From NCBI RefSeq assembly GCF_009834875.1, contig NZ_WVHT01000003.1:124001-188000 (forward strand): 64,000 nucleotides of DNA, in the 5' to 3' direction. Positions 26,085-30,792 of this stretch are shown here, piece by piece. Position 1 is the first letter of the stretch; every line of letters begins with the position of its first letter. The stretch comes from Hufsiella arboris (GTDB lineage Bacteria; Bacteroidota; Bacteroidia; Sphingobacteriales; Sphingobacteriaceae). The translations under genes and the position numbers were made by a program. A model generated the notes under the pieces. It was not told where the DNA came from. It saw only the letters and a list, made by a program, of their open reading frames with translations, and did no database searches.

Positions 26085-28454
26085 TTATGCGCTGCAGGAT
26101 AAACAGCCTTCTTCCATGCTGCAAACTGCGCCTTCAATGATTTCTTCAACTTCAGTTTCCTGCTGTATAACCGGCTCAACCTGTTTGCCAGCCTGGCTTT
26201 GTACCGTAAATTTAACTGCTTGTGCTGCAGCCTGAGTACGTAAATAATACATTCCGGTTTTCAGACCTTTCTTCCATGCGTAGAAATGCATCGACGTAAG
26301 TTTCGAAGACGTCGGCGAATTAACAAACAAATTTAATGACTGCGACTGGCAGATATATGCACCGCGATCAGCAGCCATATCAATCACGCTACGCATTTTT
26401 ATTTCCCAAACGGTTTTATAAAGCTCTTTTATGCTTTGTGGAATTTCATCGATATGTTGAATAGATCCGTTAGCAAGAATGATCTTTTCCTTTATATCAT
26501 GATTCCAAATACCCAAATCGACAAGATCTCTGAGCAAATGCTTGTTGACCACGATAAATTCTCCGCTTAGTACACGACGGGTATAGATGTTTGAAGTGTA
26601 AGGTTCAAAACACTCATTATTCCCTAATATCTGTGATGTCGACGCTGTTGGCATTGGAGCAACAAGTAATGAATTGCGAACTCCGTCTTTTATTACACGT
26701 GCACGCAATGTCTCCCAATCCCAGCGCGAGGTTGGCTGCACATTCCAAAGATCAAACTGGAATTTGCCTTTTGATAGTGGTGATCCATTAAACGTTTCAT
26801 AAGCGCCTTCTTTTAATGCAAGGTCTGCAGATGCAGTCATTGCGGCGAAATAGATCGTCTCAAAAATTTCGATGTTAAGCTGAGCTGCTTCCGGGCTTTC
26901 GAACGGCATTTTAAGTAATAAAAATACATCCGCTAAGCCCTGAACCCCTAATCCGATCGGGCGGTGACGCATATTTGATTTACGTGCCTCTTCAACCGGG
27001 TAATAATTGTTATCGATGATCTTGTTCAGGTTGACTGCGGCCTGGTAAGTTACATCGTATAATTTCCGATGATCAAATTCACCGTTAATGATATAACGTG
27101 GCAATGAAAGTGATGCCAGATTACAAACGGCAACTTCATCAGGTGCAGTATACTCGATAATTTCGGTACACAGGTTCGAACTTTTTATCGTTCCAAGATT
27201 TTGCTGGTTTGATTTAGAGTTTGCCGCGTCTTTATAAAGCAAATACGGCGTTCCTGTTTCAATTTGAGCATCCAGTATAGCAAACCAAAGTTCCTGCGCT
27301 TTTATAGTTTTGCGGGCTTTTCCTTCACGTTCGTATCTTTCATAAAGCTCTACGAATTCTTCACCGTGACAATCTGCCAGGCCTGGCGCTTCATGCGGGC
27401 AAAACAGGCTCCACTGACCATCCTCTTCAACCCGCTTCATAAACAGATCTGAAACCCAAAGCGCGTAAAATAAATCGCGGGCACGGTTTTCTTCTTTACC
27501 ATGATTTTTCTTCAGGTCAAGAAATTCGAATATATCGGCATGCCATGGCTCCAGGTAAATAGCAAAAGCACCTTTGCGCTTGCCGCCGCCCTGGTCAACA
27601 TAACGGGCAGTATCGTTAAAAACACGCAGCATCGGTACAATACCGTTACTTGTTCCATTGGTTCCACTAATGTAAGATCCTGTTGCACGAACGTTGTGTA
27701 TGCTTAAACCAATACCTCCGGCACTTTGAGAAATCTTGGCTGTTTGGCCTAATGTTTCGTAAATACCTTCAATGCTGTCATCTTTCATGGCAACCAGGAA
27801 ACAGCTTGACATTTGCGGTTTTGGGGTAGATGCGTTAAAGAGTGTTGGCGTGGCATGGATAAACCAACGCTCACTCATCAGATTGTACGTTTTGATAACG
27901 CTGTCGATATCGTTTTTATGAATACCTACCGACACACGCATAAACAAATGCTGCGGACGCTCAACAATTTTACCGTTCAACTTAAGCAAATATGATTTTT
28001 CAAGCGTCTTAAATCCGAAGTAATCGAAGCTAAAATCGCGGTCGTAAATAATTGTACTATCTAAAAGCTCAGCATTTTCTTCGATTATCTGCCATACCTC
28101 ATCCGACAACAGTGCAGCAGGCTTGCCCGACTCCGGATCGATGTATTGATACAAGCGAAGCATTGTGTCCGAAAAACATTTCTCAGTATTCTTATGAAGA
28201 TTGGAAATAGCTATACGGGATGCAAGCAAAGCGTAATCGGGATGAATAGTCGTAAGCGAAGCGGCAGTTTCTGCAGCCAGATTATCCAGCTCGGAAGTTT
28301 GCACTCCATCATATAACCCATCAATTACTTTCTTGGCAACTTCAACAGGATCAACAAACGTTTTGTTCAATCCGTAACTTAACTTTTCTATTCGTGCGGT
28401 TATTTTATCAAATTTAACCGACTCTTTTTTTCCGCTTCTCTTTAATACAAACAT
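26085..28454 (-). CDS. nrdA: Class I ribonucleoside-diphosphate reductase, alpha subunit
   Basis: A 789-residue catalytic subunit that makes deoxyribonucleotides from ribonucleoside diphosphates. Residues 1-90 are an ATP-cone allosteric domain ([20 protein letters not shown]). The barrel carries the substrate and active-site segments [48 protein letters not shown] with the active Asn-x-Cys-x-Glu, and [19 protein letters not shown]. The tail CLSCSA gives the mobile redox CxxC used for re-reduction by thioredoxin or glutaredoxin. It follows nrdB by 58 bases on the same strand and shares its cobalamin-riboswitch leader. Confidence 0.95.
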
Positions 28455-28512: not shown

Positions 28513-29481
28513 TTAGAAATCATCATCCAATGAAAACGCCTGTTCTTCTTTAGTTGAAAGAACACCACTCTTTTGGTAATCACCAACCCTTTTTTCAAAG
28601 AAGTTCGTTTTTCCCTGCAACGATATCATTTCCATAAAATCGAATGGATTTGTGGCATTAAATAATTTGGTATAACCAAGTTCAGACAGCCACCTGTCAG
28701 CAACAAATTCTATGTATTGCTGCATTAGTTTTGCGTTCATCCCGATCAGGTTTACCGGAAGTGCACCCGTTACAAATTCTTTTTCAATTTCAACGGCGTC
28801 GCCGATGATCTGATGCACCTGCTCCTCGCTCAATTTATTTTTAAGCATACCGTATAACAGACAGGCAAACTCACAATGTAAACCTTCGTCACGGGATATC
28901 AATTCATTGCTAAATGTCAGGCCAGGCATCAAACCACGTTTCTTTAACCAGAAAATCGAGCAGAAGCTCCCGGAGAAGAATATTCCTTCGACCGCTGCGA
29001 ACGCTACGAGGCGTTCGGCGAAAGATCCATTATCAATCCAGCGCAGTGCCCATTCTGCTTTCTTCTTAACACAATCTATCGTGTCGATCGCATGGAACAA
29101 ACGATCCTTTTCTTTCGGATCTTTGATATAGGTGTCGATCAGCAATGCATACGTTTCAGAGTGGATATTCTCCATCATGATCTGGAAACCATAGAAACAA
29201 CGGGCTTCCGGCAATTGCACTTCACTCATAAAGTTCACCGCCAGGTTCTCATTCACAATTCCATCACTTGCTGCGAAAAACGCTAAAACATGACTTACAA
29301 AGTGCTTTTCACCATCATTGAGATTCTCCCAATCTTTCATGTCCGAGCCCAGGTCAATTTCCTCGGCTGTCCAGAAACTGGCTTCATGGCGTTTATAAAT
29401 CTCCCAGATTGCCGGGTAATTAATTGGCAGGATTACAAACCTGTCTTTGTTTTCGCGGAGCAATACTTCTTCCTCTTCCAT
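28513..29481 (-). CDS. nrdB: Class I ribonucleoside-diphosphate reductase, beta subunit
   Basis: A 322-residue radical-generating subunit, close in style to eukaryotic R2. It has the iron-ligand motifs near [20 protein letters not shown] followed by [15 protein letters not shown], in which the His is a metal ligand and the following Tyr is the expected radical site, and the second carboxylate/His set in [17 protein letters not shown] and [14 protein letters not shown]. The C-terminal tail AFSLDDDF is the usual peptide that docks into NrdA. The enzyme does not use vitamin B12, yet its 5' leader holds a cobalamin riboswitch (29603-29718). Confidence 0.95.
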
Positions 29482-29525
29482 AATTTCAATTTTTATGAAT
29501 GATGTTTACTGACAAAAGACAACAA

Positions 29526-29542
29526 GGCTAATACCGGTAGCC
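29526..29542 (-). promoter_or_regulatory. Hairpin in the nrdB leader, likely expression platform
   Basis: Minus-strand GGCTA and TAGCC pair around a loop CCGGTAT, 45 bases before the nrdB start and 61 bases beyond the riboswitch aptamer. In cobalamin riboswitches such a downstream hairpin often docks with the aptamer or hides the ribosome site; this assignment is by position. Confidence 0.4.
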
Positions 29543-29602
29543 CGGAAATTAAACAGTGAAGGACTTTCATCAAAACTTTATTCGTGAAAGCTTTGACAAA
29601 CA

Positions 29603-29718
29603 TTATGCGGCAGATATCTGGCTAACCACCATCCGGCGGTTCACAGTTGCACGTCAGCTCCTGATTTTCACAGGCTTCTCTTGAGTTGCTAACTTTAAAG
29701 TTGACAACACCGGCATAA
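29603..29718 (-). ncRNA. Cobalamin (B12) riboswitch in the nrdBA leader
   Basis: Read on the minus strand, the stretch at 29641-29667 contains AATCAGGAGCTGACGTGCAA followed by CTGTGA, which matches the conserved B12 box (form: AATCC-x-GG-x-x-CTG-x-C-x-x-GCAACTGT). A P1 stem TTATGC-CGG (29710-29718) / CCGCATAA (29603-29610) closes the element, and AGCCAGATATCTGCC (29608-29622) matches the conserved GCCAG-x-x-x-CCTGCC end. Inner helices GTTG/CAAC, CCTG/CAGG and ACCGCC/GGTGGT fit the core fold. At about 116 nt it is shorter than most AdoCbl-type elements. It lies 122 bases upstream of nrdB on the same strand and probably turns the B12-independent reductase down when cobalamin is plentiful. Confidence 0.85.
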
Positions 29719-29835
29719 GATTTTGTTAAAGAACTGCTATAAAATTACGCGGTTGAAAGCATGTTTAAATGCGGAAGTTTTAAACAACCACCGTACTTTT
29801 TAACATTCGGTAAACCAGTGAAGCCGAACCGGTTA

Positions 29836-29864
29836 AATAAAAAAAGCCCCGCTTTATGCGAGGC
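29836..29864 (-). terminator. Intrinsic terminator after the nucleotidyltransferase gene
   Basis: Stem GCCTCGC / GCGGGGC (minus strand) with a five-base loop and seven T. Its stem sequence equals that of the tracrRNA terminator at 47947-47974. Confidence 0.88.
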
Positions 29865-29898
29865 TCAAAAATAGTTTTCTACATTTTGTTGAAGCCCG

Positions 29899-30792
29899 TT
29901 ACCACAAATTCTGCGGATAAACGCCTTCTTCTACTAATTTGCTGATGCTTTTTTGCACAATTGGCTTATCTTCTTTGTATGTTACACCGAACCATTTTGA
30001 GCTTGTTGGAATAACTTTAAACGAAGCTTGTCCGGTTTTAATGAGCTCATCTGCAATTAAAGGAATAAAAAATTCAGCTTTCGGGTTGTTCTCATTCTGC
30101 TCGACAAACCGCTTGAAAATTGGCTCACTTTGCGCGAAAACCGCTGGCGTAAAACCCCAGAAATTCATCGAAACACGCGTATCGGTAGTTAACTCATGTT
30201 CCTCGCCGTTTTCCTTGTACACAACGCCGTCACCCTTGAAATATACTTCTGTACGTTCGTTGATTTCGGTCATGAAACCATCTTTTACGTTACAAACGCC
30301 ACGTGAAACTGATCCATAATCAGACAGGGTGTTCGATATCTGGTAACCGATTAATGAGTATTTATCATCAGCAGCTTCAGAGGTTAGGAATTTTGCCATT
30401 TTTTCAAAGGCGTCATAACCATAATAATCATCGGCATTGATTACACAGAATGGCTCGTGTACCTGGTTGCGCGCGCATAATACCGCGTGGCCGGTTCCCC
30501 ATGGTTTCGAGCGTTCTATTTCTTTATTGATTCCAAAAGGCGTCAAATCATAGCTTTGGAAAATATAATCAGTTTCTACGACTCCGTTCAGCTTTGGCTC
30601 AAATATAGCCTTAAAACTTTCCGCGAATTCTTCGCGTATGATAAAGCCTACTTTTCCGAAACCCGCTTTTATCGCATCGTAAATTGAATAGTCAATAATC
30701 GTTTCGCCGCTAGGTCCAAAGCCGTCGACTTGTTTCATGCTTCCATAGCGGCTGGCCATGCCTGCAGCCAAAATTAATAAGGTTGGTTTCAT
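29899..30792 (-). CDS. Sugar nucleotidyltransferase
   Basis: A 297-residue NTP-transferase. The N-terminal nucleotide-binding signature LLILAAGMASRYGSMKQVDG (residues 5-24) has the G-x-G-T-R-like loop in the variant AGMASRYG, and the Asp pair in CVINADDYYGYDAF near residue 120 would bind the metal. The domain continues to about residue 270. It probably activates a sugar-1-phosphate with a nucleotide; the substrate is not clear. An AT-rich 288-base gap upstream (30793-31080) separates it from the HerA-like gene and must hold its promoter. Confidence 0.85.
   Translation of the reverse strand: MKPTLLILAAGMASRYGSMKQVDGFGPSGETIIDYSIYDAIKAGFGKVGFIIREEFAESFKAIFEPKLNGVVETDYIFQSYDLTPFGINKEIERSKPWGTGHAVLCARNQVHEPFCVINADDYYGYDAFEKMAKFLTSEAADDKYSLIGYQISNTLSDYGSVSRGVCNVKDGFMTEINERTEVYFKGDGVVYKENGEEHELTTDTRVSMNFWGFTPAVFAQSEPIFKRFVEQNENNPKAEFFIPLIADELIKTGQASFKVIPTSSKWFGVTYKEDKPIVQKSISKLVEEGVYPQNLW

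Follow-up and report, generated by a model that had tools for sequence, protein, structure and literature searches.

Class I ribonucleotide reductase genes under cobalamin control have a described counterpart in Streptomyces, a genus that also has a class II NrdJ: the nrdABS genes of Streptomyces coelicolor reportedly lie under a B12 riboswitch, in work attributed to Borovok and dated 2006. Parts of PMC4342826 likewise cite Streptomyces nrdABS as controlled by a cobalamin riboswitch, and describe in Bacillus methanolicus an (AdoCbl)-nrdAB leader together with another cobalamin riboswitch before metE. The placing of B12-independent isozymes under cobalamin riboswitches is a general rule according to excerpts of PMC2211319, and because such control was already known, the nrdBA switch described here is a good example and not a surprise. 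Our search of the open-licence literature found no report of a cobalamin switch before nrdBA in Bacteroidota. Two further systems offer architectural comparisons: the Priestia megaterium metE riboswitch, whose P13 3' strand is captured by a strand further down in the absence of corrinoid (PMC10653944, in part), and the Mycobacterium tuberculosis ppe2 switch, a class IIb variant.

Our window, the whole 64,000-nucleotide stretch of Hufsiella arboris DNA that was analysed, combines features of these systems. Like S. coelicolor nrdABS and the B. methanolicus nrdAB leader, the latter as described in parts of its source, it places a cobalamin riboswitch 5' of class I reductase genes. Unlike S. coelicolor nrdABS, it belongs to another phylum, has nrdB before nrdA and carries a compact aptamer; B. 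methanolicus, for its part, is a member of the Firmicutes. As in P. megaterium metE, the P13 3' strand has a downstream pairing partner, but in P. megaterium that pairing is an antiterminator (PMC10653944, in part), whereas the partner in the window lies shortly before the start codon and is accompanied by no convincing terminator. With the ppe2 switch, as far as the excerpted text of PMC11260477 describes it, the window shares the lack of P8-P12, the B12 box and an L5-L13 kissing loop, while ppe2 differs in target and platform and has GGAA at J3/4 but lacks the J6/3 UCU.

Judged by its sequence, the nrdBA leader is a real and well-formed cobalamin riboswitch with a compact aptamer and a platform that merits experiment. 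We consider it likely that this leader works as a compact riboswitch that turns nrdBA off in the presence of cobalamin, through an exchange between two helices, P13 and P14, while NrdJ takes over. Such a mechanism would extend B12-controlled reductase exchange to Sphingobacteriaceae and Chitinophagaceae.

The compact aptamer and the genes it precedes

Scanning the whole window with cmscan, in a search that keeps only the best family of each clan, left RF00174 as the sole Rfam family above its gathering score, with a minus-strand match at 29592-29730 that scores 41.3 bits (cut-off 31.5, E 5.4e-7). This Infernal result confirms the cobalamin riboswitch that the first-pass annotation had placed in the nrdBA leader. 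The match covers 139 nt and model positions 1-189 and ends 110 nt 5' of nrdB, so that the aptamer is longer than the roughly 116 nt originally estimated. The interval first assigned to the switch, 29481-29718, overlaps the match and also takes in the expression platform, because it reaches down to the nrdB start codon, but its upper end omits the first 12 nt of the match.

The B12 box claimed for the leader is present as AGCCAGATATCTGCC at 29609-29623 (minus strand), where the RF00174 alignment assigns to it the 3' sides of P6 and P3, J6/3 and the start of the P2 3' side. Inspected by eye in the alignment, P3 of the window carries a two-sided change, AGA/UCU for aGG/CCu, that retains pairing, and P4 forms four of its five pairs, the fifth being a G-A that also appears in the comparison of compact aptamers; across ten of these, two pairs of the P4-L4 element (29660-29674, minus strand) show two-sided changes in two sequences each. 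The large P6-P12 part is absent from the window and is replaced by an 18-nt P6 hairpin at 29624-29641 (minus strand), whose five pairs show two-sided changes in five or six of ten sequences. Altogether 11 of the 23 predicted pairs carry two-sided changes among the ten compact nrdB aptamers, which supports the core helices.

The predicted kissing loop consists of L5 (ACGTG, 29650-29654, minus strand) and L13 (CACG, 29583-29586, minus strand), the latter being the complement of CGTG in L5 with a Watson-Crick score of 4 in the window. Scores of 3 to 5 were obtained in all 18 leaders compared (the window and 17 others), with six L5 types and the lowest value, 3, in L079. None of 20000 label shuffles was as good, and 22 of 20000 were when each L5 type contributed a single pair, figures to be read with the L13 motif rule having been set after inspection of the sequences and with related rows not being independent. 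Computation across the leaders thus shows that L5 and L13 are complementary and covary, as a kissing loop should. Upstream of the aptamer, TAATTTTA at 29740-29747 (minus strand) is a weak candidate for the -7 element, with one mismatch to the Bacteroidota consensus TAnnTTTG, and a terminator-like hairpin at 29844-29866 (minus strand) lies 3' of the upstream gene (29899-30792).

Directly downstream, and in agreement with the class I assignment of the first-pass annotation, are nrdB (28513-29481, minus strand), encoding a class I small subunit of 322 aa that passes Pfam PF00268 and no NCBIfam cut-off, and nrdA (26085-28454, minus strand), encoding a large subunit of 789 aa with one ATP cone that passes TIGR02506. 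The switch therefore stands immediately 5' of class I reductase genes, the arrangement of nrdABS. The closest solved relative of NrdB is an entry that we take to be mouse R2, pointing to a eukaryote-like R2 type; ENIHSETY of NrdB aligns with ENIHSEMY of the mouse protein, and the tyrosine of this motif is presumably the radical-bearing residue.

The genome, 4.80 Mb in size and 99.97% complete, contains two RF00174 matches in all. A B12-dependent class II NrdJ had been predicted to exist elsewhere in it, and another contig, C1, does encode one, about 1,100 residues long, in which Ribonuc_red_2_N, barrel and TSCPD domains are recognised. A search for B12 uptake genes, also suggested at the outset, found a TonB-dependent receptor gene behind the second RF00174 match (112.2 bits) and a BtuF-like periplasmic binding protein gene (PF01497) further down. 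MetH and a cobalamin adenosyltransferase are both encoded, and MetE has no match in this 99.97% complete genome. In a genome bearing MetH and NrdJ, the adenosyltransferase, the uptake-type genes and NrdJ together mean that AdoCbl could be made from imported cobalamin and that a B12-dependent substitute for NrdBA is available.

A proposed pairing exchange before the nrdB start

Comparison of leaders places a P13 hairpin, CAAAGCTTT-CACGAAT-AAAGTTTTG, at 29571-29595 on the minus strand. In its extended form P13 has 92.3% of alignment cells paired, with slid versions at 66.5% or less, and it shows no covariation beyond shuffles. Of 15 leaders, 14 carry a conserved element, CTTTTGTCA, 25-37 nt 5' of the start of nrdB, and in L111 the distance is 101 nt. 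This element is able to pair with the 3' side of P13 and the adjoining flank, giving a helix, P14, and since the flank thus has a partner near the nrdB start, we propose a competition between P13 and P14. In the window the P14 5' side is TTGATGAAAG (29564-29573, minus strand), whose first three nucleotides are the last three of P13, and the 3' side is CTTTTGTCAG (29509-29518, minus strand), the conserved element 27 nt 5' of the nrdB start.

The nine core P14 pairs are all formed in 12 of 15 leaders, the window among them, with eight in L111, seven in L042 and five in L103. On an alignment of 14 leaders (A3, from which L107, L111 and L114 were left out), 93.4% of P14 cells are paired against 59.3% or less for slid versions, four pairs (six cells) carry two-sided changes, and the covariation score exceeds that of all 500 shuffles. 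Overall, zero or one of 500 shuffles was as good for the pairing, two-sided-change and covariation measures; the remaining one of five measures, further pair types, was not above shuffles (409 of 500). P14 was also considered as an intrinsic terminator and rejected, as it has no U-run.

In most relatives P14 extends into the P13 3' strand, on its loop-side half, by pairing AGG with CCT. The window has lost these three outer P14 pairs, so that only three nucleotides are common to P14 and the 9-bp P13, and full competition would arise there only with the extended P13. As read from sequence, the competition is weaker in the window than in its relatives, and the modelled exposure of the start is nearly equal in the P13 and P14 states.

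The P13 3' strand of P. megaterium metE is captured downstream in the absence of corrinoid (PMC10653944, in part), and on this basis we propose that the window forms P13 with ligand and P14 without it, and is OFF when ligand is present. The sign of the response, nrdBA being off when cobalamin is bound, is thus assigned by analogy, and an activating corrinoid riboswitch also exists according to excerpts of the same source. When cobalamin is plentiful it would bind the aptamer, most likely as AdoCbl, which the adenosyltransferase of the genome could make; the L5-L13 kissing loop would then hold the P13 hairpin, nrdBA would be switched off and deoxyribonucleotides would come from the B12-dependent NrdJ. 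Under cobalamin shortage, CTTTTGTCA, which lies some 30 nt 5' of the nrdB start, would be expected to pair with the 3' side of P13 and the adjoining flank, and nrdBA would be expressed. Control would probably be exerted at translation start and not through Rho or RNA decay. Bacteroidota make little use of Shine-Dalgarno pairing, and the proposed platform is one that can be tested in such bacteria.

How the start codon itself might be masked is suggested by the relatives, where a third helix could control translation start through pairing of an element freed by P13, TTCCTGTT, with codons 2-4 of nrdB, AACAGGAA; we regard this step as possible but somewhat doubtful. Seventeen leaders were tried, and 16 have the element by pattern (L114 was dropped). 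Eight of the 16 show a run of seven or eight pairs, TCCTGTT or TTCTTGTT with AACAGGA(A), two more have a run of six, and in L042 and L098 the element pairs instead with a stretch directly before the start. Elements perform best in their own leaders: when they are swapped between leaders 5 of 3000 trials do as well, and with shuffled elements 0 of 2000. Of the 80 loci examined four were unresolved, and the 60 resolved ones that lack a switch have neither CAACAGGA at the start nor TCCTGTT or TCTTGTT further up. Against these observations, L016 is the only one of 16 resolved loci with a switch in the 80-locus set to have CAACAGGA, the bearers are related to one another, and the CCT part of the element is accounted for by P14 as well. 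Closing P13 lowers the modelled start exposure by at least 0.05 in 7 of 15 relatives (by at least 0.2 in four), leaves it equal in seven and raises it in one. The window itself lacks both parts, its element being CTTTTGTCAGTAAACATC and its start ATGGAAGAGGAAG.

Aptamer types, ligand and termination

Compact aptamers form a distinct length group. A list of 150 RF00174 matches from the family, which leaves out weaker ones, separates into lengths of 131-152 nt (18 matches) and 172-254 nt (132 matches), although length is a rough mark, since L042, L110 and L111 by eye appear long only through an insertion in P6, while L107-L109 by eye carry a GGGAAGG-type extension, in L109 as GGGAAGA. Sorted by target, compact aptamers make up 10 of the 17 listed matches 5' of nrdA and all three 5' of a 550-residue reductase (NrdE-prime); the single match at class Ib NrdE is not compact, two of the 26 at metE are, and so are three of the remaining 103, L092 being one of these three. 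The early remark that the short aptamer might indicate a compact class holds up in this respect: the window lacks P8-P12, and 13 of the 18 listed compact aptamers precede class I reductases. A compact aptamer is no mark of every B12-independent isozyme, an idea that we rejected on finding 24 of 26 listed metE switches to be full-length, L090 and L091 being the exceptions. Compact and full-length aptamers before the same gene in related bacteria provide a natural set for asking what P8-P12 adds.

Some compact switches have other neighbours. L090, L091, L093 and L095 stand 5' of metE-like genes (L090 by profile, the rest by eye), and three compact matches have no obvious B12-independent isozyme directly 3' when inspected by eye, being followed by a resolvase-like fragment (L088, genome G107), a 172-residue open frame (L089, G133) and a TonB-receptor-like gene (L094, G036).

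The architecture of the window raises the question of its ligand. A response to methyl- or hydroxocobalamin, as in class IIa, in place of AdoCbl appears rather unlikely to us. The P8-P10-P11 domain is optional in cobalamin riboswitches according to parts of PMC2258182, and the P8-P12 extension, a mark of class I in the excerpted text of PMC11260477, is absent from the window, which has only the 18-nt P6 hairpin; this absence speaks for another ligand. So do the bases before the P3 strand: the window has AUA there and the nine other compact nrdB aptamers have ACA, against AGA in full-length nrdB aptamers such as L011 and L108. The same source, in part, gives GGAA at J3/4 and UCU at J6/3 as marks of class IIb; compared with this description only, the window has GAGAA, and AUA before a UCU that is assigned to P3, while GGGAA is found in eight of the nine other compact nrdB aptamers and GGTAA in one. 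Class IIb switches bind AdoCbl and the compact M. tuberculosis switch is a clean fit to neither class II type (PMC11260477, in part), so that architecture leaves the ligand unfixed, and AdoCbl is the cofactor of NrdJ. RF00174 was the best family of its clan in all 14 matches listed in a laxer re-search. In the proposed mechanism AdoCbl is the most likely ligand.

A wider scheme, which we offer as speculation and think improbable in its entirety, would have the compact group largely dedicated to B12-independent enzymes, above all nrdBA and NrdE-prime operons, with a ligand preference or threshold of its own. It would act through a three-helix relay of P13, P14 and an anti-start helix, the last located in the first nrdB codons and co-evolving with the leader, and the lineage of the window would have rewired the final step.

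Control of transcription, with Rho or an intrinsic terminator halting the leader when cobalamin is bound, is unlikely. The scanned region holds three terminator-like sites on both strands against 0.6 expected, one of them a hairpin at 29525-29543 (minus strand), and many leaders have by eye a pyrimidine-rich stretch 3' of P13. The U-run of the 29525-29543 hairpin is broken (TGTTGTCTTT), however, another of the three sites belongs to the upstream gene, and by eye most relatives have little beyond TGTTT 3' of P14. That the switch in the window is decaying and no longer functional is very improbable: its 41.3 bits are the lowest score among the family matches first listed (the laxer re-search gave 36.8 and 38.7), the anti-start part and outer P14 pairs are missing, and a relic-like aptamer in L115 suggests by eye that decay occurs, but P3 is preserved by a two-sided change, the short P6 hairpin is intact, and the B12 box, L5-L13 and nine core P14 pairs are all present.

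The switch and NrdJ in related genomes

Among 101 genomes of the window's family, each at least 90% complete, 57 have a window-type NrdA, scoring 300-331 bits to TIGR02504 and so below the cut-off of that model. Under strict filters, 17 of the 57 carry a same-strand RF00174 match 1.55-1.73 kb 5' of the NrdA domain, that is, before nrdB; a laxer re-search of the 40 genomes without a match at nrdBA added one, G149 (36.8 bits), for 18 of 57. NrdJ scores over its cut-off in all 18 genomes with the switch at nrdBA and in 13 of the 39 without it (Fisher 6.6e-7, relatedness ignored). The 13 genomes that have both NrdJ and nrdBA and no RF00174 match before nrdBA indicate that the switch is not required.

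The contrast lies mostly between genera, and g16 is by eye the only genus in which NrdJ and the switch both vary; there the switch is present in five of seven genomes with NrdJ and in neither of two without. A second sample, of 80 NrdB relatives, includes 17 loci with a switch (among them L074 at 28.3 bits, under the cut-off), and NrdJ is over its cut-off in 16 of these 17 and in 28 of the 63 others; the latter count becomes 30 of 63 if L015 and L081, switchless loci with NrdJ-like pieces under the cut-off that were counted as without, are included. The exception is L013, a switch-bearing locus from a 2.6 Mb metagenome-assembled genome (MAG) in which nothing but NrdA matched NrdJ. A B12-box pattern within 700 nt 5' of nrdB is found at 10 of the 80 loci, or 9 without L009, whose box lies 683 nt upstream. 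Several genomes of the family share their RF00174 places with loci from named genera, for example G089 with L016 (Paradesertivirga), G125 with L066 (Pedobacter), and G126 with L036 (Mucilaginibacter), which makes Sphingobacteriaceae the most likely identity of that family. On the NrdB tree, in which 10 of 77 inner branches are well supported, the switch requires 12 changes, and testing for a link between switch and NrdJ with the tree taken into account had no power. With only two well-supported independent pairs on that tree, an association with relatedness considered is not established.

Other reductases also carry the switch, namely NrdE-prime in three genomes and class Ib NrdE in one, and NrdJ is present in all four; reductase type was assigned by profile for L105 and L112 only. 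In L104 (G172), L105 (G095) and L106 (G115) a compact switch is followed by a class I small subunit and then a 550-residue large subunit, that of L105 being NrdE-prime (TIGR02510). L092 (G108) has a compact switch on a contig that ends after a small-subunit start resembling by eye that of L105, and NrdJ is over its cut-off in G172, G095, G115 and G108. A full-length switch in L112 (G148), at 396-589 of the reversed stretch, precedes a class Ib operon, the large subunit of which scores above the cut-off of TIGR04170. Window-type NrdA is absent from 22 of the 53 NrdJ genomes of the family; G085, G099 and G106, for example, have only two matches each, taken as the two NrdJ pieces, and in such genomes DNA precursors may depend on B12.

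In L115 (G170), which has NrdJ and no RF00174 match at nrdBA, a stretch within 400 nt before nrdB (at 591) resembles a decayed compact aptamer and by eye retains P4 CCATG/CATGG. An upstream motif, TGTTTAAAACT, was rejected as a general feature, occurring in 3 of 80 wider relatives. The window has TGTTTAAAACTT at 29775-29786 (minus strand), and upstream of nrdBA GTTTAAAA recurs in 13 of the 16 leaders taken from the compact group and its near relatives, as well as in switchless L010 and L014. At L059 (G054, contig C78) and L079 (G074), nrdBA lies between two cobalamin switches on the same strand: the first stands 5' of nrdB, and the second follows the matched NrdA domain at a distance of about 0.3 kb in G054 and about 0.5 kb in G074.
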